Part shown: piece by piece, positions 2,960-23,902 of the stretch
Numbering within the stretch: the first letter of the stretch is position 1
Layout: every line of letters begins with the position of its first letter
Origin: a virus
IMG/VR virus record: IMGVR_UViG_3300042518_000380
Location: 1-24,252 of that record
Strand: one strand, 5' to 3'
DNA: 24,252 bases
Program-made: the position numbers and the translations under genes
The notes under the pieces: generated by a model
Database searches by the model: none
What the model saw: only the letters and a program-made list of their open reading frames with translations
Told to the model about the DNA's origin: nothing

Positions 2960-3049
2960 TCGTCTTGTGTGCGTAAACACCAGTAAATACAGGCATTTGC
3001 CCCCGAACCGTATTTAGGAATATTGGACACACGCTTACTAGTGAGAGGC

Positions 3050-3065
3050 ACTGTCACAAGACAGT
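3050..3065 (+). other. Small hairpin upstream of the 43-residue ORF
   Basis: ACTGTC-ACAA-GACAGT, a perfect 6-bp stem with an ACAA loop, 11 bases before an AAGGAG ribosome site. The same stem size and loop recur immediately upstream of the ribosome site of the amidotransferase gene (6670-6685). It may be an operator or a 5'-UTR structure. Confidence 0.35.
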
Positions 3066-3401: not shown

Positions 3402-3413
3402 TGATTAGCGTTA

Positions 3414-3450
3414 GCACACAATGTTGATAGACCTCTATCAACTTGTGTGC
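3414..3450 (+). promoter_or_regulatory. Palindrome copy 1, with extended stem
   Basis: The core GTTGATAGACCTCTATCAAC (3423-3442) is a perfect inverted repeat except for its CC centre. Here it is extended by GCACACAA before (3414-3421) and TTGTGTGC after (3443-3450), leaving one unpaired T, so a transcript could form a long hairpin with an ACCT loop. It lies between the 49-residue gene and the 3516-3956 gene, 73 bases before the latter's start. No U-tract follows. It is an operator or RNA element; see the other copies at 3956, 4530, 5426 and 6625. Confidence 0.8.
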
Positions 3451-3474
3451 AATGCGGTAATCATTACCCCGTGT

Positions 3475-3491
3475 GAGTTACGGAATAACTC
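3475..3491 (+). other. Second intergenic hairpin before the 3516-3956 gene
   Basis: GAGTTA-CGGAA-TAACTC, a 6-bp stem, 24 bases upstream of the start codon of the 146-residue gene. The string GTGTGAGTTAC spanning its left arm recurs downstream of palindrome copy 2 (3984-3994), again inside a hairpin. The preceding GGTAA/TTACC (about 3456-3468) forms a further small stem. Confidence 0.35.
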
Positions 3492-3515
3492 CATACACAA
3501 AAGGAAATAAATAAA

Positions 3516-3956
3516 ATGACAAACTACAGAATCCACGCAGCAAAAATTGCACAAGGTTCATCCAAAGAATTTGATGGATGGATTGACATGGCATTGGAGG
3601 CTAAGGGCTACAAGTCCATCGCTTACTATGCACAACGCAGTCAAGTAGACAATTCACTCCACAGCGAAACAACGGTGCGCCAGTATTGCTCGTTCATCGC
3701 CAAGGGCTTGGAATTGTTTGGTACTCGTAGCGCAATGGTCAAGGCTTACGATGCGGAATACACCTATCGCAACATCAGTTCGTTGCGTTCGTTTATCACT
3801 TCCGCAACCAAGAGCAAGGGCAACAACAAGGGCGCAAGCAAGAAAGCACCCGCCAAGCGTGTTGAGACCTACTTGGTCAAGAAAGCAATGCGTGATGCAG
3901 GCATTCCAGCAAGCAAGATTGACTTGGTCATGTTTGCTCTTGCCACCAAGAAATAG
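3516..3956 (+). CDS. 146-residue basic helical protein, candidate regulator
   Basis: No family is recognised. Residues 1-95 look compact and helical (EFDGWIDMALEAKGYKSIAY, SETTVRQYCSFIAKGLELFG, NISSLRSFITSATK). Residues about 98-112 form a Lys/Gly/Ser/Ala-rich linker (KGNNKGASKKAPAKR), and a short helical tail follows (TYLVKKAMRDAGIPASKIDL). The ATG has AAAGGA about 10 nt upstream. Palindrome copy 1 lies upstream, and copy 2 begins on the last base of its TAG stop, so the gene is bracketed by the element. A basic two-domain protein in that position could bind the palindrome and regulate itself and the neighbouring units; this is inference. Histone-like or other DNA-binding roles are alternatives. 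Confidence 0.8.
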   Translation: MTNYRIHAAKIAQGSSKEFDGWIDMALEAKGYKSIAYYAQRSQVDNSLHSETTVRQYCSFIAKGLELFGTRSAMVKAYDAEYTYRNISSLRSFITSATKSKGNNKGASKKAPAKRVETYLVKKAMRDAGIPASKIDLVMFALATKK

Positions 3957-3975
3957 TTGATAGACCTCTATCAAC
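3956..3975 (+). promoter_or_regulatory. Palindrome copy 2
   Basis: Perfect copy of GTTGATAGACCTCTATCAAC. Its first base is the last base of the TAG stop of the 3516-3956 gene. Two more hairpins follow directly (3977-3994 and 3995-4028) before the next start at 4074. It has the same orientation as the other four copies. Confidence 0.8.
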
Positions 3976-3976
3976 C

Positions 3977-4028
3977 GTAACTCGTGTGAGTTACCGCAAC
4001 ATTGTGTAGCCCCCTGCATAGTGTTGCG
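3977..4028 (+). other. Tandem hairpins downstream of palindrome copy 2
   Basis: First hairpin: GTAACTC-GTGT-GAGTTAC, a perfect 7-bp stem (3977-3994). Second: CGCAACA, a mismatched T, then TGTGTAG, loop CCCC, CTGCATA, a mismatched G, then TGTTGCG (3995-4028). The second gives 14 pairs including G-U wobbles. With the palindrome they make three stems in 73 bases. There is no U-tract, so intrinsic termination is not obvious. RNA processing, stability control or attenuation are possible. Confidence 0.5.
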
Positions 4029-4073
4029 TCATGTTCACACAAGTGAGCAAATACACAAGGAGAAACAAACAAC

Positions 4074-4289
4074 ATGAGTAATCCATTCCGCAAGAAGAAG
4101 AACACATTTGAGGCACTCAATATTCGTGCTTACAATTTGCGTTCACAGATAATGAATGACAAGGAAGAACTTGCAGAGGTTCTTGCTTTACTTGACCAAT
4201 TCAGCGACATTGTTGCTGTTGAGATGCGTATTACCAAAGAAGATATTGGCGTTACACCTCGCTTTCGTAACTCAGATTGGAGTATCTAA
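4074..4289 (+). CDS. 71-residue helical hypothetical protein
   Basis: Starts at ATG 4074 after AAGGAG and an A/C-rich spacer. The N-terminus is basic (NPFRKKKNTFEAL), followed by a long amphipathic helix (LRSQIMNDKEELAEVLALLDQFSDIVAVEM), probably a coiled coil, and a short tail. The stop TAA overlaps the next ATG as TAATG, so the two genes are likely translationally coupled. It is the first gene after the hairpin cluster at 3956-4028. No family is recognised. Confidence 0.65.
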   Translation: MSNPFRKKKNTFEALNIRAYNLRSQIMNDKEELAEVLALLDQFSDIVAVEMRITKEDIGVTPRFRNSDWSI

Positions 4290-4444
4290 TGGAAACAAAA
4301 ATAGAGGAACTGCGAAAGGTAGTCATGTACCATCTGGGTTTGTCCTACGACGATGCAGTGAATTATCTAATGGAAAGAATGTATAACCAAAAGTCCCACC
4401 GTCAAGCAATGAAAGCAATCAAAGGAGATAAATACAATGGATAA
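4289..4444 (+). CDS. 51-residue hypothetical protein
   Basis: ATG 4289-4291 overlaps the upstream stop (TAATG). The product is METKIEELRKVVMYHLGLSY followed by DDAVNYLMERMY and a basic tail (SHRQAMKAIKGDKYNG). It is largely helical, and its last codons contain the AAAGGAG ribosome site of the next gene. It overlaps that gene by 8 bases. Too small for a family call; support comes from the coupling on both sides. Confidence 0.55.
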   Translation: METKIEELRKVVMYHLGLSYDDAVNYLMERMYNQKSHRQAMKAIKGDKYNG

Positions 4445-4613
4445 AGAAACACTCACAATGGTCATCGTGTTCTGCGCATCAGCAGGACTCGTTATGACTG
4501 GTTATTACCTAGGCAAGTGGCTAAATGAAGATGATAGACCTCTATCAACTTTCATGTCTCGTGAATGGGTTATGCGTAATCATCCAACAAACAACAAAGG
4601 AGAATGGAAATGA
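4437..4613 (+). CDS. 58-residue single-pass membrane protein with an internal palindrome
   Basis: ATG 4437-4439 follows AAAGGAG. Residues about 6-24 (LTMVIVFCASAGLVMTGYY) form a probable transmembrane helix, followed by a cytoplasmic-type hydrophilic tail. Palindrome copy 3 lies inside the gene, starting on a codon boundary, and encodes residues 32-38 (DDRPLST). The stop TGA overlaps the next start as ATGA. The last codons (NNKGEWK) encode the ribosome site of the next gene. A small membrane protein in an early operon might alter host envelope or superinfection behaviour; no direct evidence exists. Confidence 0.6.
   Translation: MDKETLTMVIVFCASAGLVMTGYYLGKWLNEDDRPLSTFMSREWVMRNHPTNNKGEWK
4530..4549 (+). 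promoter_or_regulatory. Palindrome copy 3 (one mismatch, inside a coding region)
   Basis: GATGATAGACCTCTATCAAC, differing from the other copies only at base 2 (A instead of T). It is embedded in the 58-residue membrane protein gene and lies 60 bases before the start at 4610. The flanking AAG and CTT can still pair across the mismatch. It has the same orientation as the other copies. Confidence 0.75.
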
Positions 4614-4834
4614 TTAAGGAAACACTACAGCGTGAAAAACATGAGGAATTAGTTTACGGTTTACAAAAACTTATCATCACACTTGAGTTGTACGAGGAAG
4701 AAGCACTAATTGATGATTTACAGCAAATGGAGCGATATATGTCACTTGTAAATTGTGAACGAGGCATAGAGATACTAGTTGCAATACTCTCAAGAGGTAG
4801 ATACACAAACACAAACATAGGAGAAACAAAATGA
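4610..4834 (+). CDS. 74-residue acidic helical hypothetical protein
   Basis: The start is taken at ATG 4610-4612, which overlaps the upstream TGA (ATGA) and has GGAG 7 nt upstream. An ATG six bases earlier is too close to that site. The product is helical and acidic (REKHEELVYGLQKLIITLELYEEEALIDDLQQMERY). Its C-terminal RYTNTNIGETK is encoded by the A/C-rich leader and ribosome site of the next gene. It overlaps that gene by 4 bases. No family is recognised. Confidence 0.6.
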   Translation: MIKETLQREKHEELVYGLQKLIITLELYEEEALIDDLQQMERYMSLVNCERGIEILVAILSRGRYTNTNIGETK

Positions 4835-5031
4835 AATCAGTATCAGAAATCAAATGGTTGAGGGTTCTTGGTTTCGCAAACAATGATGGTGCTTACTGTC
4901 TTGGTTGTATTGACCTAGATGCAATTCCAGAGGATGAATCATTCACAACGATATACGGTCGTGATTACCCTGATGGTTTCACTTGCGTAGAGTGCTGTGA
5001 TGTAATCAAAGGAGAATCAAATGAGAGTTAG
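4831..5031 (+). CDS. 66-residue putative zinc-binding protein
   Basis: ATG 4831-4833 overlaps the upstream stop (ATGA) and follows AGGAG. The product has CLGC (residues 23-26) and CVECC (residues 52-56), enough for one zinc site of the treble-clef or ribbon type, with an acidic middle (DLDAIPEDESFTTIYGRDYP). Its end overlaps the next start by 11 bases. It is one of several small Cys-rich proteins in this region. Function is unknown. Confidence 0.6.
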   Translation: MKSVSEIKWLRVLGFANNDGAYCLGCIDLDAIPEDESFTTIYGRDYPDGFTCVECCDVIKGESNES

Positions 5032-5257
5032 TCAAGCAATAAAAATGTTGTCAGCACTAAACGCTGATGATGAAATTGCAATATCATGGTGGACTCGTGA
5101 TTTATTTACAGATGACAACGAACAACCGATATCAGAAGATAGATGGAGTTATGCGGTTGATAAGTTTGATTCAGAAGATGGATACGACTCCGTGAATCAA
5201 GAAGTGTGGAACCACCTATGGATTACTTCATGGGAATCAACAGGAGAACAGCAATGA
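5021..5257 (+). CDS. 78-residue acidic hypothetical protein
   Basis: ATG 5021-5023 follows AAAGGAG inside the upstream gene. The N-terminus (MRVSQAIKMLSALNADDEIAISWW) resembles a small phage/bacterial protein type that begins with a short helix and a strand carrying the motif 'L...L..DDE.A..WW', but I cannot name a family. The rest is acidic and aromatic-rich (SEDRWSYAVDKFDSEDGYD). The stop overlaps the next start as ATGA. Confidence 0.65.
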   Translation: MRVSQAIKMLSALNADDEIAISWWTRDLFTDDNEQPISEDRWSYAVDKFDSEDGYDSVNQEVWNHLWITSWESTGEQQ

Positions 5258-5430
5258 ATAAATCCACAAAGACAGCGTTGCGCCAGATGCGTAAAGATGA
5301 ACTCGTTGAGTTCACTTGGAATCTAGTTCAGCACTATAATGTCATGTCCAAGGACAATGACTACCTACGCTCATTTGTCAATAAAACCCTTATACGACAA
5401 GGGTTTCCTGACAATGAGCAGACAGGTTGA
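5254..5430 (+). CDS. 58-residue hypothetical protein
   Basis: The start is taken at ATG 5254-5256, which overlaps the upstream TGA and has AGGAG at 5242-5246. The frame is open upstream but without such a site. The product is helical and charged (KTALRQMRKDELVEFTWNLVQHYNVMSKDNDYLRSFVNK). It is the last gene of the run of overlapping small genes that begins at 4074. Palindrome copy 4 starts two bases before its TGA stop. Function is unknown. Confidence 0.6.
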   Translation: MNKSTKTALRQMRKDELVEFTWNLVQHYNVMSKDNDYLRSFVNKTLIRQGFPDNEQTG

Positions 5431-5445
5431 TAGACCTCTATCAAC
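5426..5445 (+). promoter_or_regulatory. Palindrome copy 4
   Basis: Perfect copy of GTTGATAGACCTCTATCAAC, overlapping the TGA stop of the 5254-5430 gene. It lies 122 bases before the amidoligase start. The 5446-5567 stretch holds no gene, but it has the hairpin at 5487-5516. Confidence 0.8.
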
Positions 5446-5486
5446 TCCATACAACATCACAGATGCTTGTGTATGTTGCGTGGACT

Positions 5487-5516
5487 AGAGCACACGGGAT
5501 TCGTTTCGTGTGTTCT
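5487..5516 (+). other. Hairpin in the amidoligase leader
   Basis: AGAG plus CACACG pairs with CGTGTG plus TTCT (10 pairs, one G-U) around a 10-base loop. It lies between palindrome copy 4 and the amidoligase start codon. The CACAC/GTGTG arms resemble the outer arms of the extended palindrome copy 1. Confidence 0.45.
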
Positions 5517-5567
5517 CGTCCATGACAATCGGTTATGGATAAACAAACAATAGAAAGAGAGAAAGAA

Positions 5568-6620
5568 ATGCCAACAGAATACGAAGAAGAAGAATATGTC
5601 TATGCACATTGCATGGACTGTGGTACGGAGTTGGATGAAGATTCAGCATGGTACTCAGAGCATGACAATGAGTATCGTTGCGAGCGTCACCACGACCGCC
5701 ACGAAGAACTATGTGCCGAGAACGAAGATGATGATGATGGTTTCATTCATAATTATTCGTTCAAGCCAAGTCCAAACTTTCTTGAAGATGACGGTACTGC
5801 GAGTTTCTACACTCCAGCGAACGGTCATACAAAGACTTTGTACATGGGCTTTGAGTTAGAAACAGAATTGACACGACCTACTGTCGTTCGTGGCAACTCG
5901 CTTACTCCTGGTGCTGAGCATGTTCTCAGTACCATCAACAAGCGGATTGGCTCTGACAATGTTGTGTATCTCAAAGATGATGGCTCAATCAGCCATGGCT
6001 TTGAGATTGTTTCTCACCCAATGACATTGGGATTCGCAATGAATCACTTTGACTGGTCAGGCATTGAGGGGCTCAAGGGTCTTGGTTACGATGCATGGAA
6101 AGCAAGTTCATGTGGTCTCCACATTCACTTGTCTCGTGATGCATTCGCTGACTACGGTCATATGATGCGTTTCTTCTTGCTCATACTCAAGAACAGGCAA
6201 CAACTTGTTCAGTTCGCAGGTCGTGAATCACACTATGCCAAGTTTGACATGGATGCATTCTTTAATGCGTATCATGACTACGACTCTGGCAAGACTGTTC
6301 GTGGTTCTACGCTTGCATCACATGCCAAGCAATACTCAACCAACAATGACCGTTACACGGCAATCAACCTACAGAACAACAACACCATTGAGTTACGGTT
6401 CTTCCGTCCCTCGCTGTTGGCGTCTACTGTCAAGGCTTGCTTGCAGTTCTGTGACGCTGCATTCAACTACACATCAGAGATTACTCTGCAACAAATCCTA
6501 CAGAATCAGGCAATTCAGTTTGCCTCATTCCATTCATGGGTTCGCTTTCAGGGTGACAAGTACCGCATACTTGACGAACGTATCGTTGAGCGTTGCGGTA
6601 TTCGTGGTGAAGATATCTAG
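5568..6620 (+). CDS. Amidoligase (COOH-NH2 ligase, glutamine synthetase-like fold) with N-terminal zinc module
   Basis: 350 residues. The start at ATG 5568 is chosen because a 16-base leader string lies five bases upstream exactly as at 3252; an in-frame ATG at 5535 adds 11 residues. Residues about 15-49 hold C15, C18, C38, H41/H42/H45 and C49, a zinc-binding module, followed by an acidic linker. The catalytic body has the Amidoligase_2 (PF12224) hallmarks: GFELETEL (94-101), KDDGSI..GFEIVSHP (136-151), CGLHIHLS (182-189), RYTAINL (262-268) and TIELRFFRPS (273-282). The family is predicted to ligate amines to carboxylates using ATP, in peptide, protein or cell-wall modification. The substrate here is unknown. 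The next gene is a glutamine amidotransferase, a natural partner. Confidence 0.85.
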   Translation: MPTEYEEEEYVYAHCMDCGTELDEDSAWYSEHDNEYRCERHHDRHEELCAENEDDDDGFIHNYSFKPSPNFLEDDGTASFYTPANGHTKTLYMGFELETELTRPTVVRGNSLTPGAEHVLSTINKRIGSDNVVYLKDDGSISHGFEIVSHPMTLGFAMNHFDWSGIEGLKGLGYDAWKASSCGLHIHLSRDAFADYGHMMRFFLLILKNRQQLVQFAGRESHYAKFDMDAFFNAYHDYDSGKTVRGSTLASHAKQYSTNNDRYTAINLQNNNTIELRFFRPSLLASTVKACLQFCDAAFNYTSEITLQQILQNQAIQFASFHSWVRFQGDKYRILDERIVERCGIRGEDI

Positions 6621-6624
6621 TCAA

Positions 6625-6644
6625 GTTGATAGACCTCTATCAAC
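6625..6644 (+). promoter_or_regulatory. Palindrome copy 5
   Basis: Perfect copy of GTTGATAGACCTCTATCAAC, starting five bases after the amidoligase stop. AA before and TT after extend the stem to ten pairs around an ACCT loop. It lies 55 bases before the amidotransferase start, so it separates the two partner genes. Confidence 0.8.
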
Positions 6645-6669
6645 TTTCCAATAAACATACAAACAAACC

Positions 6670-6685
6670 GTTGGAACAATCCAAC
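6670..6685 (+). other. Small hairpin just upstream of the amidotransferase ribosome site
   Basis: GTTGGA-ACAA-TCCAAC, a perfect 6-bp stem with an ACAA loop, immediately followed by AGAAAGGA (ribosome site) and the start codon at 6700. It could be a translational control element or an operator half. It is similar in form to 3050-3065. Confidence 0.4.
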
Positions 6686-6699
6686 AGAAAGGACACAAC

Positions 6700-7671
6700 A
6701 TGTGTCTGCTTACACTAATACCCGATTATGTCAATCCCGATATGGAACGGTTCAAGCATGCTGCTTTAGCCAATCCTGACGGCTTTGGCTTTGCCATCTC
6801 AACTGGCAAGAAAATAATCACAGGACACGGCATGAACTTTGATGAGGTTGCCAACAAGTTCACGGACTTGCGCACAACCAATCAAGGCCCAGCCATATTC
6901 CACTTCCGTTGGGCTACGCATGGCACGGAGACAGTTGATAACTGTCATCCGTTTGTGCTTGGTCAAGACAACAGCACGGTGCTAGGTCACAATGGAATCC
7001 TGCCAGTAGACATCAAGCCAGGTGATACTCGTTCGGACACAAAGGTGTTCGCTCAAGATATCTTTCCGAATCTTGGTGGCATCACAGCACTTGATGACAA
7101 TGATTACTTTGTCAGACTTGCTGCATGGGCTAAGGGTTCCAAGTTGGCTTTCCTCACCGTCAATGACGATGCCAAGTATGATTGGTACATCGTCAATGAG
7201 GCTGATGGTCATTGGGACAAAGAGATGTGGTGGTCTAACCATTCATATGAAGAGCGTCTCTATGTGCCATCTACGTATCGCTACGGTATGTACAACTCAG
7301 CATGGGATTACGGCTACACCGATTACGATGCCAAGCCGTTAGTCCACATACCATCTTCTGACGAAGATGATTATGATGATGAGGCTGGCATTCTTCTTGA
7401 TGAGGCAATCCAACAGATGGAAGTGTACATGACGCAAATCAACGACACCACCGTGTTGCTTGAGTGCTACACATGCGCACATTCACAACATATCTCAGCA
7501 GATGCAGTGTATTCACATTGCCCTGCATGCGAGGCATGTTTATTCTGTGGTGCTCATCATGACTGTGGATGTTGGCAAGCATTTGATGTGTACAACATTG
7601 ACTACTACAACCCTCATCACCAGTGGGCTCAGCCAAATAATCAAATGGGCGTACATCCGAGTTACTACTAG
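6700..7671 (+). CDS. Class II glutamine amidotransferase (Ntn hydrolase) with C-terminal Cys-rich domain
   Basis: 323 residues. The start is fixed by Cys at position 2, the nucleophile exposed after removal of Met in class II (GATase_2/6, Ntn-hydrolase) enzymes. Family landmarks follow in order: NPDGFGFAI (25-33), FHFRWATHG (67-75), NCHPF (81-85) and GHNGIL (96-101). Such domains release ammonia from glutamine or act on related amide bonds. No synthase domain is fused to it. Residues about 253-291 carry eight cysteines (C256, C259, C274, C277, C280, C283, C289, C291), probably two zinc sites, ahead of a Tyr/His/Gln-rich tail. Adjacent to a stand-alone amidoligase, it probably supplies nitrogen to or edits the product of that enzyme (inference). 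Confidence 0.85.
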   Translation: MCLLTLIPDYVNPDMERFKHAALANPDGFGFAISTGKKIITGHGMNFDEVANKFTDLRTTNQGPAIFHFRWATHGTETVDNCHPFVLGQDNSTVLGHNGILPVDIKPGDTRSDTKVFAQDIFPNLGGITALDDNDYFVRLAAWAKGSKLAFLTVNDDAKYDWYIVNEADGHWDKEMWWSNHSYEERLYVPSTYRYGMYNSAWDYGYTDYDAKPLVHIPSSDEDDYDDEAGILLDEAIQQMEVYMTQINDTTVLLECYTCAHSQHISADAVYSHCPACEACLFCGAHHDCGCWQAFDVYNIDYYNPHHQWAQPNNQMGVHPSYY

Positions 7672-12131: not shown

Positions 12132-13027
12132 TGAATGATGCAATAGAAACATTCATGGATTTATTCCAAGGCAGAACTGATGCGTATGGAAGTTGGGAAG
12201 GTTCTTCTGTCAAGAAGCCAGTGTCATACGATAACTTTGCTCGCCATCTGTACGGAGAGGAACTCATCGGGATATATCCCTTGCTCGATAACTCAACCGT
12301 CAGGTGGGGATGCTCAGACATTGATGTTGATGACATTGACTCAGCCAGGAATCTCCAGATGGCACTACACACCAAGAGCATTCCATCGTTCGTAGAACGA
12401 ACGGTAAAAGGCTTCCATGTGTGGGTGTTCGCCACCGAGTGGATACCAGCACCAATCATGCGCAGAGCATTCTTGTCTGCACATGAAGCCATTGGTCTGC
12501 CACCCAAGGAGGTCAACCCAAAGCAGGAGGAATGCACAGGGCTTGGTAACTACGTCAGATTGCCGTACCCCAACGGCATGAATGCAGAACCCGATGTTCG
12601 CTACATCATGAACCACGATGACAGTCCCATGAAGTTTGATACCTTCCTGAAGATTGTGTCCGCACAGCGAGTTGATGCCGAGAGGCTGAGACCGCTTGCT
12701 GAGTTGCATCGTGTCAGACAGAAGGCTTTACTTGAGCCAGCAGTCATGACAGCCTCTGTCCAAGAGGCGTTGGATTATGTAGATGCTTATGTCGCCACCA
12801 TCTGGCGCAATGGTCCTCTTGACGGTCGTGACCGTTCCAACACTTTGTGCAAGATGGTGCACAAGATGCACCAGGGCAATGTGCCAATGAAGTATGCTTA
12901 TACCATCTTGAAGGATGCTGACAAACGATGGGGGAAGTTTCACCTCAGAGTTGATTGCGTTGAGCAACTGGTGAAGATAGTAGAAGACATCTACGGGCAA
13001 GAAACCAAGGAACCATTCAGACCATAA
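12131..13027 (+). CDS. Archaeo-eukaryotic-type primase (AEP/PrimPol family)
   Basis: 298 residues. The catalytic D63-x-D65 in RWGCSDIDVDD, the second motif KGFHVWVF with H96, and the later EVNPKQ...GNYVRLPYPNG match the AEP superfamily as found in TOTE-type and phage primase-polymerases. The C-terminal part (residues about 215-290, RDRSNTLCKMVHKMHQGNVP) is helical and may be a PriCT-like accessory region. It should make primers for the replication fork together with the helicase just upstream. No separate DNA polymerase gene is visible in the window, so the fork would rely on another phage gene or the host polymerase. TAATG overlaps occur on both sides. Confidence 0.85.
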   Translation: MNDAIETFMDLFQGRTDAYGSWEGSSVKKPVSYDNFARHLYGEELIGIYPLLDNSTVRWGCSDIDVDDIDSARNLQMALHTKSIPSFVERTVKGFHVWVFATEWIPAPIMRRAFLSAHEAIGLPPKEVNPKQEECTGLGNYVRLPYPNGMNAEPDVRYIMNHDDSPMKFDTFLKIVSAQRVDAERLRPLAELHRVRQKALLEPAVMTASVQEALDYVDAYVATIWRNGPLDGRDRSNTLCKMVHKMHQGNVPMKYAYTILKDADKRWGKFHLRVDCVEQLVKIVEDIYGQETKEPFRP

Positions 13028-13365
13028 TGTTTACTCCATTCATCAAAGATTCAAACACAAGATTTGATAGCAAGATAATCAAGACTGATGCGTGTTGGAT
13101 TTGGGATGCAGCAAAAAATAGTAAAGGTTATGGATTGTTCCAAGCAGATAAGAAAAGATGGCTTGCCCATAGATACTCCTACACAATCCACAATGGAGAG
13201 ATTCCACAAGGAATGTTCGTTTGTCATGAATGTGACAATCCTGAATGTGTCAACCCAAAACACTTGTGGCTTGGAGATAACTCAGCCAACATGAAAGACG
13301 CTTACAAAAAGGGTCGACTCAACACAAATCAAAATCCGTATGGAAGGAATCAGTTTACAAAATGA
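13027..13365 (+). CDS. HNH endonuclease, homing type
   Basis: 112 residues of the HNH_3 type: CWIWDAAKNSKGYG (24-36), AHRYSY (47-52), VCHECDNPECVNPKHLWLGD (65-84) and SANMKDAYKKGR. H67 is the probable catalytic base; C66, C69, C74 and H79 lie in the metal/fold motif. Such stand-alone genes are usually mobile homing endonucleases. The DNA looks richer in A+T than the primase gene before it. Yet the gene is spliced neatly into the operon by TAATG upstream and ATGA downstream, so it is either long resident or has a phage role. Confidence 0.88.
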   Translation: MFTPFIKDSNTRFDSKIIKTDACWIWDAAKNSKGYGLFQADKKRWLAHRYSYTIHNGEIPQGMFVCHECDNPECVNPKHLWLGDNSANMKDAYKKGRLNTNQNPYGRNQFTK

Positions 13366-15766: not shown

Positions 15767-18700
15767 TTATTCTCCTTGTAGTGCTTTTTCTTTAGAAACA
15801 ATTTTGTTGATGTTCGCATTCCTGCGCTTCAATTCGGAAAGCATCTCTTGCTCTTTAACCTGACGACCAGGTACACCCAAGAAACCAAGTAGTGGGTTCA
15901 CGTATCCACGTTGCTGGTAGGTGTCGATAGATGGTGTTAGACGCTCTGCTGTTCCGAGGAATGGTATGAGGTTTCTCAAAGCGTAGAACGCTTTGTCGTC
16001 CACGAAATTCTTACCATCACGAGACTCGCCGTAGCCGGCAGCAGCAAGGAACGGCTGCAACAGTGCACCAGCACCACCCTCAACTTCAACTGGCTTGTCA
16101 GAGAACTGTCTGTTGCTGTACAACTGCCTGCCACCCATCAACTCGACTGGTACACGAAGCAGTGGGTTGACGTTTGCTAGGAATCTTGTTGGGTCTGAAA
16201 GTTCTTGAATTTGCTGACCAACACGATTGAATCCAAAGTCTGCAGTTGCGTACACATTGTTTCCGAATGGGAGTTTGAATGCACCAATCTCTGTCATCCA
16301 CTGCGGGATAACATCGCCTTCTTCGTCAGCACTAATGTTGCGCTTGATGTTGTTGTAGATTGCATAAGCCTTCGGGTTGAGCCACATGTTTCCAAGTTGC
16401 ATTGGCAAGTTCCTAGATGTCCACATCCAAAACGGAACAATCTGACGCATGTATTGGTCGGCTGTTGATACGTCGGTGTAGTCAATGAGATACTTGCGTA
16501 CTCGTGCAGAAGCAGAGTTCGCATCAAGACCTTGAGAGACACCATCCCATGCAAGCATGAATCGTGAATGATTCTCAATCCACTTACCAAACTCTTTGGA
16601 CTTCTTGGTTCCCTTGGGGGCAAGACCTCTGTCAAAGAAGTCATTGGACAAACCACCACCAGCACCAAAGAATGCATCTATGGCATCTCGTGCCTTCTGC
16701 TTCATTGCTGCTGGCACAGCATCTGATGCAATCCACTGCTCGATTGTTTTTCCAGCCTTGGATGCCTCAAGCCAAGACCTACTCATTGACAGACCTTCGT
16801 TCAGGTACTTCAACTCAGCACCAGCAGCGAACAACATAAAGGTGTTCGACATACCGTTTCTGATATGGAAGCCAGGAGTCAACGTGGCGTAAGCCTTGAA
16901 GAACTTTGTGTACTTGCCCATGAACTTACTGAGTTCTCTAACCATCTGTGGTTCGTTGAGTCTGTGTACGTTCTGGAATATCTCAGCAATCTCTTTTCTC
17001 ACACCAATATCAGGGAAGAACTTGCTCAACTGAACAAATCCATCATCAAATGTTTTTACGATGTTGAACTGCTCTGGCGGCACCTTGCCGACCAGAGACA
17101 GTGGCAAAGTAGAGCCAGTGAACTCCATGTTCTTCAAGCCGGCAGCAAACGCTGCCTCTTGTTGGAACGCTGTCATCTCAGATGACTTCATCATGTAGTT
17201 GTTTCTAGCGTCAACATAAGTTCCAATAATTGTTCTAATTGGTTGAGGAATGGACTCACCAGATATCTGTTGAATCATGTAAGACGAGTCATCAATATGT
17301 TGGTCTACTTCGGCAATCCAATCATCAGAACCAGCCTTTATTCTTCCACTGCTCTTTGATGATGTCCAGTACCTAGTGTCTTTTGCCATCTTCTGAATGT
17401 CAGCCAATGTCTTCTTGGTTTCTTCAATTTGTTTCGGGCCGTGTTCTGCAAACGTAACAGCAGCATCGTAAGCCTCCTTGGCTTTCTGATGCGCCTTTGA
17501 TGCTTGAGCAAACGATTCACTTGACTTAACAGCCTTTTGATTAGCCTTGTTTGTCGGCAACAACATTCTTTCTTTAACTTCCATTGCTTTCTGCAGTTGT
17601 TGCATCTGCTTCATCTTCTCGGCAAGAAGTTCCTTGCGACCAGCACTCATCTGGCTAAGCAATTCAAGAACATCGTTCTGACGACCCTGTTCAACAATCA
17701 AATCGAACCTCAAGTTGTTGAGGAGTTTCATTGTTTCTTCGGTCTTTGTGTCTGGAATGAAAGCACGACGGTTGATTGTCTTGTCGCCAATCACACCCTT
17801 CGCAGCACCAGTCCTATCTGCTTTCCAAGCATCGATAGCACGTTGCTCTGCCTTCATTTCCAACTGACGCTGTGTTCCACCAGCCTCTACAGTGCTTTTA
17901 TCTATTCTTACATATTCAGCCCTGACTGAATCATCAAACATTTCAAACAAGTCTGCCAACTCTTCTTTGGTTGGCTCACGACCAATGTCGGACTTAAGTC
18001 TATTCTTTAGGCGGACACGAGCATCCTTTAGTCCCTTGGCATCAATCTCACGCAATTCCTTGGCGACACCCTTTGCCTCATCTGCCAGTCCTTTACCGTA
18101 CTTTGTTTTTGGAACAGCAGTAGTTGTTCCCAGTTCTGCAAGAACTTGTTCTTGCAATCTGGAAACCTTTGTATCGTTTGCCAAGATGGTTCCACGAAGT
18201 CTTGAAATTTCAGCACGAAGAAACTCTTGATGGTCTAACACACCCTGCCTGTTTGCAATCCAGGCATCATGCATTCTTGTATCAAGTTTTGATTCAAGTT
18301 TCTTGTATTCATCCAGCAACTGCAACTCTTCGCTAGAAGACCAAGATTCAGACAAGAAATTTCTACGAATTCTAGTATCAGAAACTTTTGTATAAACCAT
18401 AAGAGGTTGGTTGTATTTAGTGCGTTGATTTACAAACTCTCTTATTGCTTCATCAGAAGTGTATGGCTGCCTCTCTACCGTTGAACCAATTTGCCTCATG
18501 TCCGGACCATAAGAGTCGTTGATTGGTGCTCTTGTCGTCTTCTTCGGCTTTAGACCAATGCTTTCCTGGAAGTCAATATCATCAAATGAATCATGAAGTT
18601 TGGCAAACTTGTTTAGAGCAGAAGTCCTTGAATCGTGCTGAAGTATCTGTTCTTCTACTGCAAGGATAGTGTCGTCAATCTTTTGCAACTTGTCATCAAA

Positions 18701-21700
18701 ACCTACAGTTGACTTACCAGTTCTCGCAAAGGAACCACGCTGTTGAAGAAGCCTCTTCCTCTGTCCAAGGTATGCGTTCCTCTGTGAACGTATACTCGCT
18801 ATGTTCGTTGGTCGTAGTGGGTCGTCCCACAGAGAGTTCCATTCTGCTCTGGTAAATCCCAAAGCAACTGCAGACTCTTCATCTAGTCGTGCAAGTTGCA
18901 AGGCGAATCTGTGTTCGCTTTCTCGCTTTAGCGCACGAATGTATTGCGGAGTTGAAGCAACATCGTCAAGTTGTTGCTGAATAACAATATTCTTTGCCGC
19001 TTCTTTGGCAACCTTCTGTGGTTCTTCAACAGGCTTTGCAGCCCTTTCCGTTGCTCTCTTTAGTTTTCTTTCTGTAGCCCTTAACTCGGAGTTGTAATCC
19101 TTGCCCTCTCCAATAACTCGAAGTAGGTCATCTGCATGTTCTTCCAATGCGTTAGCCATCGCTGCGGGTCCACGCAGTTCTGTTCTGAGTAACCAAGCAC
19201 CAGGAACATATTTGCCATCAACAAAGTTTCCAACTTTGCCATCGAGCAAAACTTCCGTAGGCAAGTTTGGCTCATCGACAAGAGTGGTTAGTCCGTTAAT
19301 TCTGCTGTTGATTCTTGCGTCAAGACGACCAAAGAATGAATCAGATTCGAGCACAGTCCTGTACTGCCTAGCACCTCTGGTTGCGGAGAAGTCGTAAACT
19401 TCTCCACCAAGAATGCTTCCCCAGAAATCAGTCATTGCTTTTTCGCTACCACGGAATGTCCTCTTCAACATTCCAACATAGCCGTACTCACCATCCTGCG
19501 AAGAAGCAAGAGCAGACAAACGTTTCCTTAGTTGACGTTGGTTCTTTGTTCCAACAACTTTTTTAGCAGCGTCAGATGCCAACTTTCTGTCTACTTGCAT
19601 TTGTTTGATGATTTCGTCGTACCTATTTTTTAGGTCTTTTGCAATATCAGAGTTGTTGGTTTTTTCCATCAATTCATTAATGGATTTTTCGATGTGTCCT
19701 CTTAATTTTTGATATTGGTAATCAGCAGACTCTGAAGTCTTTGGAACGTACTCTTCGATACCCTCATCTGTAAACGTTGTTACTCTGGCTCGTCTAGTGG
19801 TAGGTCTTCCGAAGTCTTTATATATACCAACCTTTTGGAGTTCTTGAATTACAGCACTCTCTAGAGAAAGAGCATCTGGATGCTTGTAGAACAATTGGTT
19901 AATGTTTCCAGTCCTTGACTCAAGCCAAACTGCTTCAATCTCTGGGAAGTGTTCTTGAAGCAATCTTTTTTGTTCAAGCAATTTTTCCAACTCTTTGGTT
20001 GTCCTACCCTTTGTCGGCGGTTGTGCTCGCAGAATCTTGGCAATTTCTTCCATCATTATATTCGAGCGACTGATGTCGTCTATCTTTAACTGTTCAACAA
20101 ACTCAGCACGAAGTTGCTGATTTGTTGGAACACCGCCAATTTTATCAATTAGATTTTTTTCTATTTGAGTTAATTGTGCTGGAGTTAAATCACTATATTT
20201 TCTTGTCCTTAATCCAAAACTATTAATCTTTGAGTACATATCAGAAAACAATTCTTTCAACGATTTAGATTCATTCATGAAATCTAAAGCAGCGTCAAGT
20301 TCAGGCTTGGCAACCGCAGAAAGAATTGCGTTGTACATATTTTCTGTTGGTGCAACTCCGAACAAATCAAGTGTCTGCATCAATCGCTTGAAGTTGTGTA
20401 CGGTTTCACGGTGTAAGTAGTACTCAGATATACCAGATGACAAATCCGCCATAACATCCCTAACACCATTCAGCGTTACTGCTGTTTGTGGTGCAGACAT
20501 GTCATGTCGATTTAATCTAGAAGATAGTCTTTCCTGTAGTTTTTTTTCTGAAGTAATTCTTTTTTCTACTAATTTTCTTCCTTCGTTTAATTTGGCTAAT
20601 TTCTTTTCATCCATATCACCAAAGTAACCAATTTGGCCATCAATTTCGAATGTTGTGGAAATTTCATCAAGTTGTTCTAGTTGTGACTCTAGGTTCGCAA
20701 GTTTTTGAACAGACCTGTTATATGCAATTGTTCCAGAGTCTCCAATCTCACCAAAGATGTATTTCTCTGTTGCATCAGCCTGTCGCAACAACTCAACAAG
20801 GTTGGAGAACCTTGTCTGAGTTGCACCAGTTGTTGACGCTTCTTGGAATCCTTTTACCAACTGTCCAGCGAGTTCTGAATCACTTAGCACGTCACGCACA
20901 ACCAACCAGATACCTGCTTCACGAAGTTCACGTAGGTCGGTTGGTGTAACTGCCGGCTTGGCCAAACGCTTGCGTATATCTGATATCTTTATTCTTGACA
21001 ACATTTCTGCGGACACAAGACCGTCAGGGTCGAGTATGGACTTCAGTTGTTTTAGTTCTAAAGGAATATCCTTAAGTTCTTTTGCTCCCCATACTTTCCT
21101 AATGTTTAACGCATTCATTGCGGGTAGACGTTTAGCCCTTTTACCATCGTAACTTATTGCATCAAGAATTTCATCGTAAACATCGGAACCATCAATACTT
21201 GTTATGTCAATTTTTCCAGCAATAATGTTGTCCATAAAGTTGTGCAACTGCATAACTTTATTCCACTGGTCTTGTGAGTCCTTCAACGCTGCAGCGGCAG
21301 CCTCCATCTTCCTATCAAGTGTTTTGATGAGTTCATCAACGGTTGTTAGTTTTGCATCAACCTTATTGCTGAGAGAATTAAGGATTAATGTTTCGTCTGG
21401 TGTGATTGTTTTGTTTTTTGTTTTTTCGGTGAGCAACTTAATAGTTGTTTTTTCTTCTGGTGTCAACATTCTTCCGATTACTTCAGCAACCTCATCACCA
21501 CTTGCAATTAGTTCCCCACCAGTTCCAACAACAACTTGTGCTTGTCCAGGAGCATCTGTTAGTCCAACACCCATCCTTGAGTATCGCTCTGAATAGTTGT
21601 TGACCAAATCGTCAACAGCCTTCATCAACTCATCGTATGTATCCTGAGAGTTCTGTATACTTTTGTTAAGCACATCGATAACATGTGTCTGCCCATCAAG

Positions 21701-23902
21701 AGAATCCTTGAAAGCATTCCATGCTTTTGCCCTGTCGTTGAATGCCTTGAGCATCAACTCTTTGGCATTGCGAATACCAGCAAGTCTTTCTTCTGGGGTT
21801 CCAACTTGTTTGGCCTGCTTTAGCAACTCATCAAGTTGTTTGCCAACTTGACCAGTTTCTGCAGCCATTGAATCCAGGTGCAACTTTACTGCTCCCAATG
21901 CATTTCTTCCAGCCAAAGCCATTTCAGCATGTGCCTCAGTTACTGCACCCTCAAGCATCTTGGCGTGGTCAGCAATTGACCTAATCCATTCCTTTGTGAC
22001 CGAACCCATTGCAACAGACTCAGAAAGCATTCCACCCTCTTTGGCAATACGCATAAACTCCGCAGTTCCATACTGCGAAGAAAAGTGCTCACCATACTTC
22101 TGCATAATCTTGTTGATGTCTGTTTCAAAGAACTGTCCCTTAAAACCACGATTCGATTCACGTGCTATCTTGTTCAGTGTGTCAAGACCACCGAGCACAT
22201 CTTCTTCGGTCAATGTCTTTCCAAAAAACTCTGCACCCTTGACAAGATTTCGTGACTGAAACGATGCAGTCGGGTCTGTCATGTTTACCTTGAGATACTT
22301 CAAGATGTCTTCGGCTCTTGCGGATGACATGCTGTTAATCCAATCACGTGCCTCGTCTGTCATAAGGTGAGGCAGGTAGTCTTTGATACCCTTCATTTGG
22401 AAGTTTGGGTCTACTAGTTGATACTTGGATTCAATGTCAACCCGCCAACCCTCGAATGCTGCACGAAGTTTGTCGTATGCAGTTCTTTCGGTTGGGGATA
22501 ACTGGCGTGGCCAGTTCAAAGCACCATTGGGCTTGAACTCTGGAGTATCCAAAAACTTGTAGAAGTCTGCACCAACAGCCTTAACATCTGGTTCTTCAAG
22601 CAATGGTGCAACAATCTTTGCGTAACTATCAAGCATCTGTGCCTGTAGACTTCGTGCTGCCTGGTCTGCACCCTCAAGACGAACAGCCCACCGAGCAATC
22701 TGTGGGTCCATCTTCTGCAATCTTCCATCAATGTACATCTTGCCAGTTGCAAGACCACGACGAAGTTCAGTCATGTTCCTAGATGCCGATGTTCCCTTGG
22801 GCATAAAGTTTTCTGCAAGCCATTCCAAGGGACGGCTACCCATGATGCCGACACGAGAGGAAACTAAACCAGTCTGAATTGCTTCAGCAACTGGACCAGT
22901 AAATGGAATCCTCTTTTGTGTGCCTGCAATATACAAACCAGTTTTCTTGAGACCAATCTTTGCTGCAAGTTCCTGACCCTCAACAGTGCTATCAAGAGCA
23001 ACTCTTCCTCGTTTTGCAACATCTTGCACAAGTTCTGGTGATGCACCAAGTTTGTCGGCAAGGCCGGCAAGATTGGTGCGAGAGGTACGACCAGTAATTC
23101 TTTTGCCGATTAAAGCCCTAAGTTTCCTTCCCTCTTGAGCACTTGCTACACGTGTTGCTTCTGCAGCAACTTCTTTTGCTACTGCTCGTTCTATGTATGC
23201 TGGACCAAGAGCAGCAAGTTCCTCTGCTGTTTCAACAACAGCCTTACTTGCAATACCCTTAGCCGTAGCACCAACCTTTAGGGCAGCGGTTGCTGGTATC
23301 GAGGTACCAAGTGTTAACCAGTTGATTGGGTCAAGAACCAAGTCACCGAACAAACCAACAGCCCTACCCCAGTTTCCCTTCATCGGGAATGCTGTACCAA
23401 ATCCGTAGGTTACATCTTTGGTTTGATTGAACCAATCACCCAAAGATGCTTTCGTGTTCTTATCGGTGTCAAGAATATCTGCCACCTCACGAACACCAGA
23501 AATTACCGCACGACGACCAGTGTCAAGAACCATCAACGGTGCAAGTGCAACCTTAGCAACTGGGTTGTTGAGTATGTTCCCAAGAACTCCAAGCGCACCA
23601 GATGGTTCACTCTTGCCAGCAGCAGCACTATTGATTTGGTCCGTAAGTTTTGGATAGTTTACTGACTGCTGTGTTGCGTAGTTAGTAAGTTGGTTTGACT
23701 TCATGCGTACAGCGGGTGAGCCACCAACCTGTGGCGCACCAGCGACAGTGGATGTAAGGGTGGGGAATTTAGAAGCAGCAGCAGGTGGCGTAGCCGTTCG
23801 ACCAGTCGGAGCAACGCTCGGCATCTGACTTGGAGCAGAGCGTGTATAGGACTGCTGTGTCAGCCCCTGAAGTGCATTAAGTAAATCTTGTTGTGTGGCC
23901 AT
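15767..23902 (-). CDS. Giant virion protein (2711 residues), putative internal/ejection protein with LPD38-like C-terminus
   Basis: The N-terminus is Ala/Pro/Thr/Ser-rich (1-100). Hydrophobic stretches follow at about 104-127 (LGVLGNILNNPVAKVALAPL) and 180-210 (GLFGDLVLDPINWLTLGTSI). A long helical, partly coiled-coil middle (about 650-2200) is rich in Lys, Glu and Leu, and part of it is visibly richer in A+T. The C-terminal region (about 2340-2600) contains LTPGFHIRNGMSNTFMLFAA and DYTDVSTADQYMRQIVPFWM followed by WTSRNLPMQLGNMWLNP, resembling LPD38-type segments of large polyvalent phage proteins. Such proteins are thought to be packaged and delivered with DNA. No polymerase, protease or lysozyme motif could be identified. 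It starts in a TAATG overlap with the upstream gene. Confidence 0.85.
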   Translation of the reverse strand: MATQQDLLNALQGLTQQSYTRSAPSQMPSVAPTGRTATPPAAASKFPTLTSTVAGAPQVGGSPAVRMKSNQLTNYATQQSVNYPKLTDQINSAAAGKSEPSGALGVLGNILNNPVAKVALAPLMVLDTGRRAVISGVREVADILDTDKNTKASLGDWFNQTKDVTYGFGTAFPMKGNWGRAVGLFGDLVLDPINWLTLGTSIPATAALKVGATAKGIASKAVVETAEELAALGPAYIERAVAKEVAAEATRVASAQEGRKLRALIGKRITGRTSRTNLAGLADKLGASPELVQDVAKRGRVALDSTVEGQELAAKIGLKKTGLYIAGTQKRIPFTGPVAEAIQTGLVSSRVGIMGSRPLEWLAENFMPKGTSASRNMTELRRGLATGKMYIDGRLQKMDPQIARWAVRLEGADQAARSLQAQMLDSYAKIVAPLLEEPDVKAVGADFYKFLDTPEFKPNGALNWPRQLSPTERTAYDKLRAAFEGWRVDIESKYQLVDPNFQMKGIKDYLPHLMTDEARDWINSMSSARAEDILKYLKVNMTDPTASFQSRNLVKGAEFFGKTLTEEDVLGGLDTLNKIARESNRGFKGQFFETDINKIMQKYGEHFSSQYGTAEFMRIAKEGGMLSESVAMGSVTKEWIRSIADHAKMLEGAVTEAHAEMALAGRNALGAVKLHLDSMAAETGQVGKQLDELLKQAKQVGTPEERLAGIRNAKELMLKAFNDRAKAWNAFKDSLDGQTHVIDVLNKSIQNSQDTYDELMKAVDDLVNNYSERYSRMGVGLTDAPGQAQVVVGTGGELIASGDEVAEVIGRMLTPEEKTTIKLLTEKTKNKTITPDETLILNSLSNKVDAKLTTVDELIKTLDRKMEAAAAALKDSQDQWNKVMQLHNFMDNIIAGKIDITSIDGSDVYDEILDAISYDGKRAKRLPAMNALNIRKVWGAKELKDIPLELKQLKSILDPDGLVSAEMLSRIKISDIRKRLAKPAVTPTDLRELREAGIWLVVRDVLSDSELAGQLVKGFQEASTTGATQTRFSNLVELLRQADATEKYIFGEIGDSGTIAYNRSVQKLANLESQLEQLDEISTTFEIDGQIGYFGDMDEKKLAKLNEGRKLVEKRITSEKKLQERLSSRLNRHDMSAPQTAVTLNGVRDVMADLSSGISEYYLHRETVHNFKRLMQTLDLFGVAPTENMYNAILSAVAKPELDAALDFMNESKSLKELFSDMYSKINSFGLRTRKYSDLTPAQLTQIEKNLIDKIGGVPTNQQLRAEFVEQLKIDDISRSNIMMEEIAKILRAQPPTKGRTTKELEKLLEQKRLLQEHFPEIEAVWLESRTGNINQLFYKHPDALSLESAVIQELQKVGIYKDFGRPTTRRARVTTFTDEGIEEYVPKTSESADYQYQKLRGHIEKSINELMEKTNNSDIAKDLKNRYDEIIKQMQVDRKLASDAAKKVVGTKNQRQLRKRLSALASSQDGEYGYVGMLKRTFRGSEKAMTDFWGSILGGEVYDFSATRGARQYRTVLESDSFFGRLDARINSRINGLTTLVDEPNLPTEVLLDGKVGNFVDGKYVPGAWLLRTELRGPAAMANALEEHADDLLRVIGEGKDYNSELRATERKLKRATERAAKPVEEPQKVAKEAAKNIVIQQQLDDVASTPQYIRALKRESEHRFALQLARLDEESAVALGFTRAEWNSLWDDPLRPTNIASIRSQRNAYLGQRKRLLQQRGSFARTGKSTVGFDDKLQKIDDTILAVEEQILQHDSRTSALNKFAKLHDSFDDIDFQESIGLKPKKTTRAPINDSYGPDMRQIGSTVERQPYTSDEAIREFVNQRTKYNQPLMVYTKVSDTRIRRNFLSESWSSSEELQLLDEYKKLESKLDTRMHDAWIANRQGVLDHQEFLRAEISRLRGTILANDTKVSRLQEQVLAELGTTTAVPKTKYGKGLADEAKGVAKELREIDAKGLKDARVRLKNRLKSDIGREPTKEELADLFEMFDDSVRAEYVRIDKSTVEAGGTQRQLEMKAEQRAIDAWKADRTGAAKGVIGDKTINRRAFIPDTKTEETMKLLNNLRFDLIVEQGRQNDVLELLSQMSAGRKELLAEKMKQMQQLQKAMEVKERMLLPTNKANQKAVKSSESFAQASKAHQKAKEAYDAAVTFAEHGPKQIEETKKTLADIQKMAKDTRYWTSSKSSGRIKAGSDDWIAEVDQHIDDSSYMIQQISGESIPQPIRTIIGTYVDARNNYMMKSSEMTAFQQEAAFAAGLKNMEFTGSTLPLSLVGKVPPEQFNIVKTFDDGFVQLSKFFPDIGVRKEIAEIFQNVHRLNEPQMVRELSKFMGKYTKFFKAYATLTPGFHIRNGMSNTFMLFAAGAELKYLNEGLSMSRSWLEASKAGKTIEQWIASDAVPAAMKQKARDAIDAFFGAGGGLSNDFFDRGLAPKGTKKSKEFGKWIENHSRFMLAWDGVSQGLDANSASARVRKYLIDYTDVSTADQYMRQIVPFWMWTSRNLPMQLGNMWLNPKAYAIYNNIKRNISADEEGDVIPQWMTEIGAFKLPFGNNVYATADFGFNRVGQQIQELSDPTRFLANVNPLLRVPVELMGGRQLYSNRQFSDKPVEVEGGAGALLQPFLAAAGYGESRDGKNFVDDKAFYALRNLIPFLGTAERLTPSIDTYQQRGYVNPLLGFLGVPGRQVKEQEMLSELKRRNANINKIVSKEKALQGE

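Follow-up and report, generated by a model that had tools for sequence, protein, structure and literature searches.

The virus record IMGVR_UViG_3300042518_000380 of IMG/VR, analysed here over its complete length of 24,252 bases ("the window"), carries five copies of a 20-bp palindrome, GTTGATAGACCTCTATCAAC, at the junctions of its early genes. Comparison with related viruses suggests that these dispersed palindromes are probably recognised by a regulator that the phage itself encodes, most likely the product of a hypervariable gene, here called P12, which lies between the first two copies. That the protein encoded in this position (the P12 slot) is the cognate factor seems highly likely; that the sites are bound as RNA is about an even call, a form that we favour over double-stranded DNA, which we consider the less likely of the two. 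What sequence comparison shows is the presence of the sites, the use of one arm sequence per genome, the concerted compensatory change of the arms between phages, their co-occurrence and co-replacement with the slot gene, and an RNA-type covariation at site 1. The sites and the P12 gene are the following.

3423..3442, + strand: copy 1 (site 1), ahead of P12; apex of a longer stem that spans 3408-3455 and has T3422 as its single bulged base.
3516..3956, + strand: P12, hypervariable, 146 amino acids, between copies 1 and 2; candidate cognate regulator.
3956..3975, + strand: copy 2 (site 2), overlapping the P12 stop codon TAG (3954-3956) and followed by a second hairpin (3977-3994).
4530..4549, + strand: copy 3 (site 3), with the change T4531A, which gives an A.A mismatch; 54 nt before the open reading frame (ORF) at 4604.
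5426..5445, + strand: copy 4 (site 4), overlapping the stop codon TGA (5428-5430) and preceding an amidoligase-like gene; site 4 is also found in relatives.
6625..6644, + strand: copy 5 (site 5), between the amidoligase-like and amidotransferase-like genes, starting five bases past TAG (6618-6620).

The copies at 3423, 3956, 5426 and 6625 are exact and the one at 4530 has a single change, all on the + strand; no further copy was found in the window at up to three mismatches, and none is expected by chance (0 in 100 dinucleotide shuffles). The sequence-only reading that had first pointed to these palindromes was right on their number, positions and strand, as it was on the overlap of copies 2 and 4 with stop codons, on the start of copy 5 five bases past another, and on the distances to the next start (54-122 nt in the window). 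It had also placed each copy ahead of a gene, which is true of all five, but copy 3 lies in addition within a 58-aa ORF (4437-4613) that reads through it; this copy is identical in sequence in the close relatives, and at its counterpart in most relatives the stop of the upstream gene falls within the site. As for the one orientation that the copies were said to share, they do stand on the same strand in the window, but the direction of a near-palindrome is set by its centre only. The copies agree in the polarity of this spacer in the window, L029, L033 and L126 and almost agree in L038, L042 and L039; in the relatives L030, L034, L062, L055 and L035 they do not, and spacer polarity was therefore dropped as proof of RNA. 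The position of copy 2 is occupied in relatives as well, and the junction of copy 5, whose arms lengthen to 11 bp in the window (6623-6646), bears a site also in L018, L029-L034, L038-L042, L045, L046, L055 and L062. The leaders are generally structured: downstream of the palindrome, the leader of the following gene often contains another hairpin, unrelated to the first; in the window these second hairpins lie at 3977-3994 (GTAACTC-GTGT-GAGTTAC, after copy 2), 5484-5519 (a strong hairpin downstream of copy 4) and 6670-6685, and in relatives they are seen downstream of sites 1, 2 and 4.

Exact matches to the 20-mer lie in eight stretches from seven contigs, all of which are 96-99.9% identical to the window over most of the shared length, and in these close relatives the copies stand unchanged at the same five places wherever the contig extends. 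More distant relatives, down to about 45-50% protein identity, were found by using the amidoligase and amidotransferase proteins as anchors, and their gene junctions were placed from the amidotransferase anchor. Many of them have a 22-bp element in four to six copies, built of two 8-bp arms around a 6-nt spacer, and the junctions occupied are those ahead of P12, at the P12 stop, in the block of small genes, before the amidoligase gene, in the gap between the amidoligase and amidotransferase genes, and about 3 kb beyond. Seven near-complete contigs (35-44 kb) hold 5-6 copies apiece, every one of them in the early block and on the one strand of transcription, with none found outside that block. 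The sequence-only reading had named absence from all close relatives or random scattering as outcomes that would speak against it, and neither was seen. The element was not found in the relatives L020-L022, L047-L050, L052-L054, L057-L061 and L064. In two of these distant relatives several early genes are followed by G+C-rich hairpins, each of its own sequence, L022 at 2130-2165, 2548-2575 and 3036-3065 and L020 at 1215-1250 and 1640-1670.

Each phage uses one arm sequence at all its sites, and the differences between phages are compensatory, the types being AACTGATA, AACTGAGA, AGTTGATA (in the window) and AACTCATA (in L055); the spacer sequence differs from site to site within one phage. Covariation of the arms among relatives was a check proposed by the sequence-only reading, and its outcome is that the sites of a genome all undergo compensatory changes together; the ACCU loop which that reading had proposed is not conserved in relatives. 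When L034 and L039 are compared at sites 3-6, the left 25-nt flank is identical at 21-25 of 25 positions, and arm and spacer are switched together (TGATA/TGAGA). Since the flank is kept while the arms switch, transfer of a single block cannot by itself account for the uniformity of the arms. In two mosaic relatives, L036 and L106, the other arm type is found at some of the distal sites. One may consider here repeats that are mobile or promote recombination, spreading by themselves and marking the borders of modules, as these would also sit at gene junctions and would fit both the mosaics and an indel between sites 3 and 4. Yet the number and places of the sites are fixed across divergent phages, the spacers differ between copies while the arms are constant, and the copies have no homology beyond the palindrome, which makes such repeats very improbable. 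An indel in the block of small genes is seen in L005 and L008, otherwise 99.6-99.98% identical, as about 280 extra bases at window positions ~4813-4834.

In a gene-presence table of 25 records, P12 is the only gene that tracks the palindrome, being present in those TGATA- and TGAGA-type records whose contig spans the slot and absent from the palindrome-free records. A scan of IMG/VR by DNA pattern only (AACTGATA-N6-TATCAGTT) yielded seven new contigs with at least two copies (L127, L131, L144, L157, L159, L181 and L192), and in 7/7 of these a P12 homologue lies between two consecutive copies. With a P12 profile, homologues were found in 20 of 22 multi-copy stretches, the exceptions being one truncated contig and one fragment of a P12-bearing contig, and in 2 of 57 single-copy stretches, both of them pieces of P12-bearing contigs; as this profile included five of the new P12 proteins, the independent part of the evidence is the result obtained for the seven new contigs themselves. 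With the P12 of the window as query, the only matches were its close relatives.

Gene and palindrome are also replaced together. In L035/L037, L063 and L126 the P12 slot holds a protein without significant similarity to P12, and the repeated palindrome of these phages, (A)GTAAGA-N3-TCTTAC(T), differs from that of the P12 phages in both sequence and spacing; it sits at other junctions as well as at or beside the stop codon of the slot gene. The replacement protein (L035, L063, L126) was considered as a possible P12 homologue on account of a likeness seen by eye (SEFAKA...KKHKTVE), and this was rejected, the likeness not being separable from that of shuffled sequences. Its structure model is poor (predicted local distance difference test score, pLDDT, of 58.8). 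In both L126 and L063 the slot gene is preceded by two sites, and the first of the two (L126 4895; L063 1179) is a long stem that contains G.U pairs, as site 1 does in the P12 phages. An alternative in which P12 is a mere neighbour is that the palindromes are hairpins which process or stabilise the transcript and are cut or bound by a host factor, as RNase III acts on the early mRNA of T7. Stem-loops past stop codons at every junction of a co-directional gene block would be expected in that case, as would the RNA covariation at site 1 (see below), but the identity of the arms within a genome, their concerted change between close relatives, and their co-occurrence and co-replacement with the slot gene would all be left unexplained; we regard this alternative as quite unlikely.

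The pairing at site 1 bears on the form in which the palindrome is bound. Here the palindrome is the tip of a 16-bp stem in which, among 17 distinct sequences, 95.6% of the cells are paired and 11 of the 16 pairs show two-sided change; covariation is 0.674, as against 0.185 (sd 0.027) in shuffled and at most 0.228 in slid controls. In the window the stem of copy 1 has a predicted folding energy of -28.1 kcal/mol, and in three close relatives (96-97% identical), which lack T3422, it becomes a perfect hairpin with 17-bp arms. Over 23 sequences, the arms and their extension together contain 33 G.U and 3 A.C oppositions, and in the extension alone the observed numbers and those expected from shuffles are 137 and 56.9 for Watson-Crick pairs, 28 and 26.0 for G.U, 3 and 12.9 for A.C, and 16 and 88.3 for other mismatches. 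Because the flanks of site 1 are compositionally biased, the raw ratio of G.U to A.C overstates the case, and the meaningful part is the depletion of A.C with retention of G.U. Such strand-specific tolerance is the pattern that an RNA stem produces. At 46 sites other than site 1, taken from divergent lineages, flank pairing amounts to 171 against 136 in shuffles, Watson-Crick and G.U pairs being in excess and A.C not, which would count as weaker evidence for RNA; the outer arm at these sites shows no preference for G.U over A.C. The sequence-only reading had proposed a bound factor or an RNA structure, and both sides of this proposal have gained support, the one through the candidate P12 and the other through the covarying hairpin of copy 1. 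A search of Rfam gave only a sub-threshold best match for the window (E 0.44) and none in 11 related loci. Stem-loops past stop codons might also be intrinsic terminators, but no terminator was called at the copies on the coding strand, where no U-tract follows the sites, and the stems are A+T-rich; the sole terminator-like call at a copy concerns copy 2, on the opposite strand. That the sites act as terminators is thus hardly to be expected.

P12 is far more divergent than its neighbours (38% identity between L038 and L034, as against 73-99% for most flanking ORFs), and it has no family match in Pfam, PHROG, NCBIfam or PADLOC, with only GerE at an E of 0.57. Its AlphaFold2 model (pLDDT 79.5) is all-helical, with helices at residues 35-45 and 51-68, the second of which opens with TVRQ, and the predicted fold resembles a helix-turn-helix. 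The P12 proteins of L033 (TGAGA) and L034 (TGATA) share a near-identical C-terminal module, VLRKKMKNAGVPQRYIDLT-FIIENEGK, with divergent N-terminal parts, and the tail of the window's P12 is similar to this module, so that the protein seems modular.

A helix-turn-helix-like model whose second helix opens with TVRQ also suits the main alternative, that the palindromes are DNA operators. A P12 dimer on the duplex 22-bp palindrome would then block RNA polymerase, in the manner of stoperators, or an unseen promoter, and the hairpin at site 1 would be a separate leader feature grown around an operator. Palindromes of this kind are usually operators of dimers, and the half-sites TGATA-N6-TATCA lie about one helical turn apart; moreover, the spacing is nearly fixed while the spacer sequence varies and the inner half-sites are invariant, and the outer mismatches of sites 2-6 go beyond G.U alone. 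On the other hand, the strand-specific covariation at site 1 is unexpected of a DNA site, the flanks of the other sites are enriched in G.U and not in A.C, and the spacer length differs by one within L045. Sigma-70-like promoters showed no excess near the sites, although the promoters of the host may differ. Stoperator-like operators, as the sequence-only reading had suggested, were not borne out, with no such promoter-like excess and no tyrosine integrase in 12 records, which may be incomplete and in which serine recombinases were not searched for. Taken together, DNA operators appear possible, if rather doubtful.

Several observations have to be set against the reading of the palindromes as sites of P12, or against RNA as the bound form. 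Within an arm type the inner five pairs are invariant, the loop is variable and the spacing is nearly fixed, which speaks against a purely RNA view; some stem mismatches are lasting (A.A in copy 3; C.C at sites 3 and 6 of the TGAGA phages), and an RNA-binding protein that reads stem pairs while the loop varies would be out of the ordinary. Neither the PDB nor BFVD gave a structural match for P12. P12 and sites 1-2 are physically linked, so that part of the association is linkage; L055 has four sites and no P12 visible on its contig, and the distal sites of the other type held by L036 and L106 imply that strict matching of protein and site is not required. The residue that follows a T-I-R motif in P12 is T in all TGAGA phages and Q, N or L in TGATA phages; since on the tree a single switch to T suffices, this residue is a specificity hypothesis and no statistical proof.

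Each junction site can fold as a stem-loop in the early transcript, copy 1, in the leader of P12 itself, being the tip of a long conserved RNA hairpin. P12 would bind the site, probably as a dimer through its predicted helix-turn-helix, would control its own gene through the bracketing sites 1 and 2, and would adjust the expression of other early genes at the remaining junctions. A more tentative reading, for which we see somewhat less than an even chance, is that P12 represents a new family of regulators that read the base pairs of the stem, not the loop, of hairpins in the RNA of their own early junctions, with protein and all hairpins shifting specificity together and a second protein/hairpin pair replacing both in related phages.

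The system probably operates in the manner of a phage regulon with several sites at gene junctions, and a number of known systems share some of its features. In phage lambda, boxB is recognized mainly by its loop, and there are two sites, with boxA, that are served by the arginine-rich N peptide. As in nut/boxB and N, phage-specific RNA hairpins here would co-evolve with a phage protein encoded nearby, but here the loop varies within one phage and the pairs of the stem are constant, the sites number 4-6, and P12 is larger than N and helical in its model. The promoter early stem-loop (PeSL) of T4-type phages carries an early promoter and is viewed as a shuffling cassette; these are likewise stem-loops between early phage genes, whereas here a promoter is not evident and the linked protein varies with the site. 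The L5-type stoperators of cluster A mycobacteriophages are asymmetric 13-bp sites of the immunity repressor. They too are regulator sites that recur in the short gaps between the genes of one operon, but their asymmetry contrasts with the near-perfect palindromes found here. L5-type stoperators are named in PMC3203893. The extended start-associated sequences (ESAS) of cluster K mycobacteriophages are paired imperfect 17-bp repeats with a 4-13 bp spacer, beside the start-associated sequence (SAS) GGGATAGGAGCCC; their variants were reported as unsupportive of pairing, and their function and partner as unknown (PMC3203893, PMC12699233). They resemble the present sites in being inverted repeats before some early genes, in one orientation and with a consensus that varies by subcluster, but the variants observed here keep pairing (95.6% at site 1) and a linked protein is present; the SAS itself had 0 matches at up to two mismatches. 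Cluster O mycobacteriophages (the Corndog group) have about 34 copies of a 17-bp palindrome, TGTTCGG-N3-CCGAACA, many within genes and without meaningful orientation, for which binding by a dimeric protein was suggested and the partner was not identified (PMC4351075). Perfect palindromes with invariant arms and a variable spacer, repeated in the genome and partly in short intergenic gaps, are common to both, whereas here there are 4-6 copies, at early junctions only, with a linked and co-varying gene and RNA covariation; the cluster O arm is unrelated, and its palindrome gave one chance-level match at two mismatches and no repeat. As the tested defining features of the cluster O and ESAS elements, and the asymmetry of the L5 stoperators, are lacking here, we do not claim membership in those families.

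Two genes around sites 4 and 5, which encode the anchors used above, are the following.

5535..6620 (likely start 5568), + strand: amidoligase-like gene, between sites 4 and 5; PF12224, E 2.9e-5, above the cut-off.
6700..7671, + strand: glutamine-amidotransferase-like gene, downstream of site 5; PHROG 25883, E 8.7e-39, with a weak GATase_6 match below the cut-off.

Other genes of the window encode a WhiB protein, a PD-(D/E)XK nuclease, a DnaB-like helicase and a primase of the archaeo-eukaryotic type, and because of this gene content, including WhiB, we infer an actinobacteriophage; WhiB and the relatives point to freshwater actinobacteria as the probable hosts. No DNA match to cultured phages was found. 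The nearest proteins are amidotransferase homologues of Marvin-type mycobacteriophages (42%) and one metagenomic DnaB, and a gene table of the Marvin type gave no lead. One third of the record is taken up by a single 2711-aa ORF (15767-23902, - strand), conserved in relatives only in parts. A 112-aa ORF (13027-13365) is a patchy gene, possibly mobile: besides the window, the sister contig G005 and G014 (86%) carry it, and the other relatives lack it.

Repeated intergenic palindromes have been noted in actinobacteriophages since at least 2011, with function and partner unknown. The natural variation observed here yields a candidate partner, namely one adjacent gene that tracks the palindrome across many phages and is exchanged along with it. 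Since a single candidate gene was found, one protein and a few oligonucleotides are enough to put the question to a direct test, and among the relatives there is a ready set of matched, mismatched and mosaic specificities.

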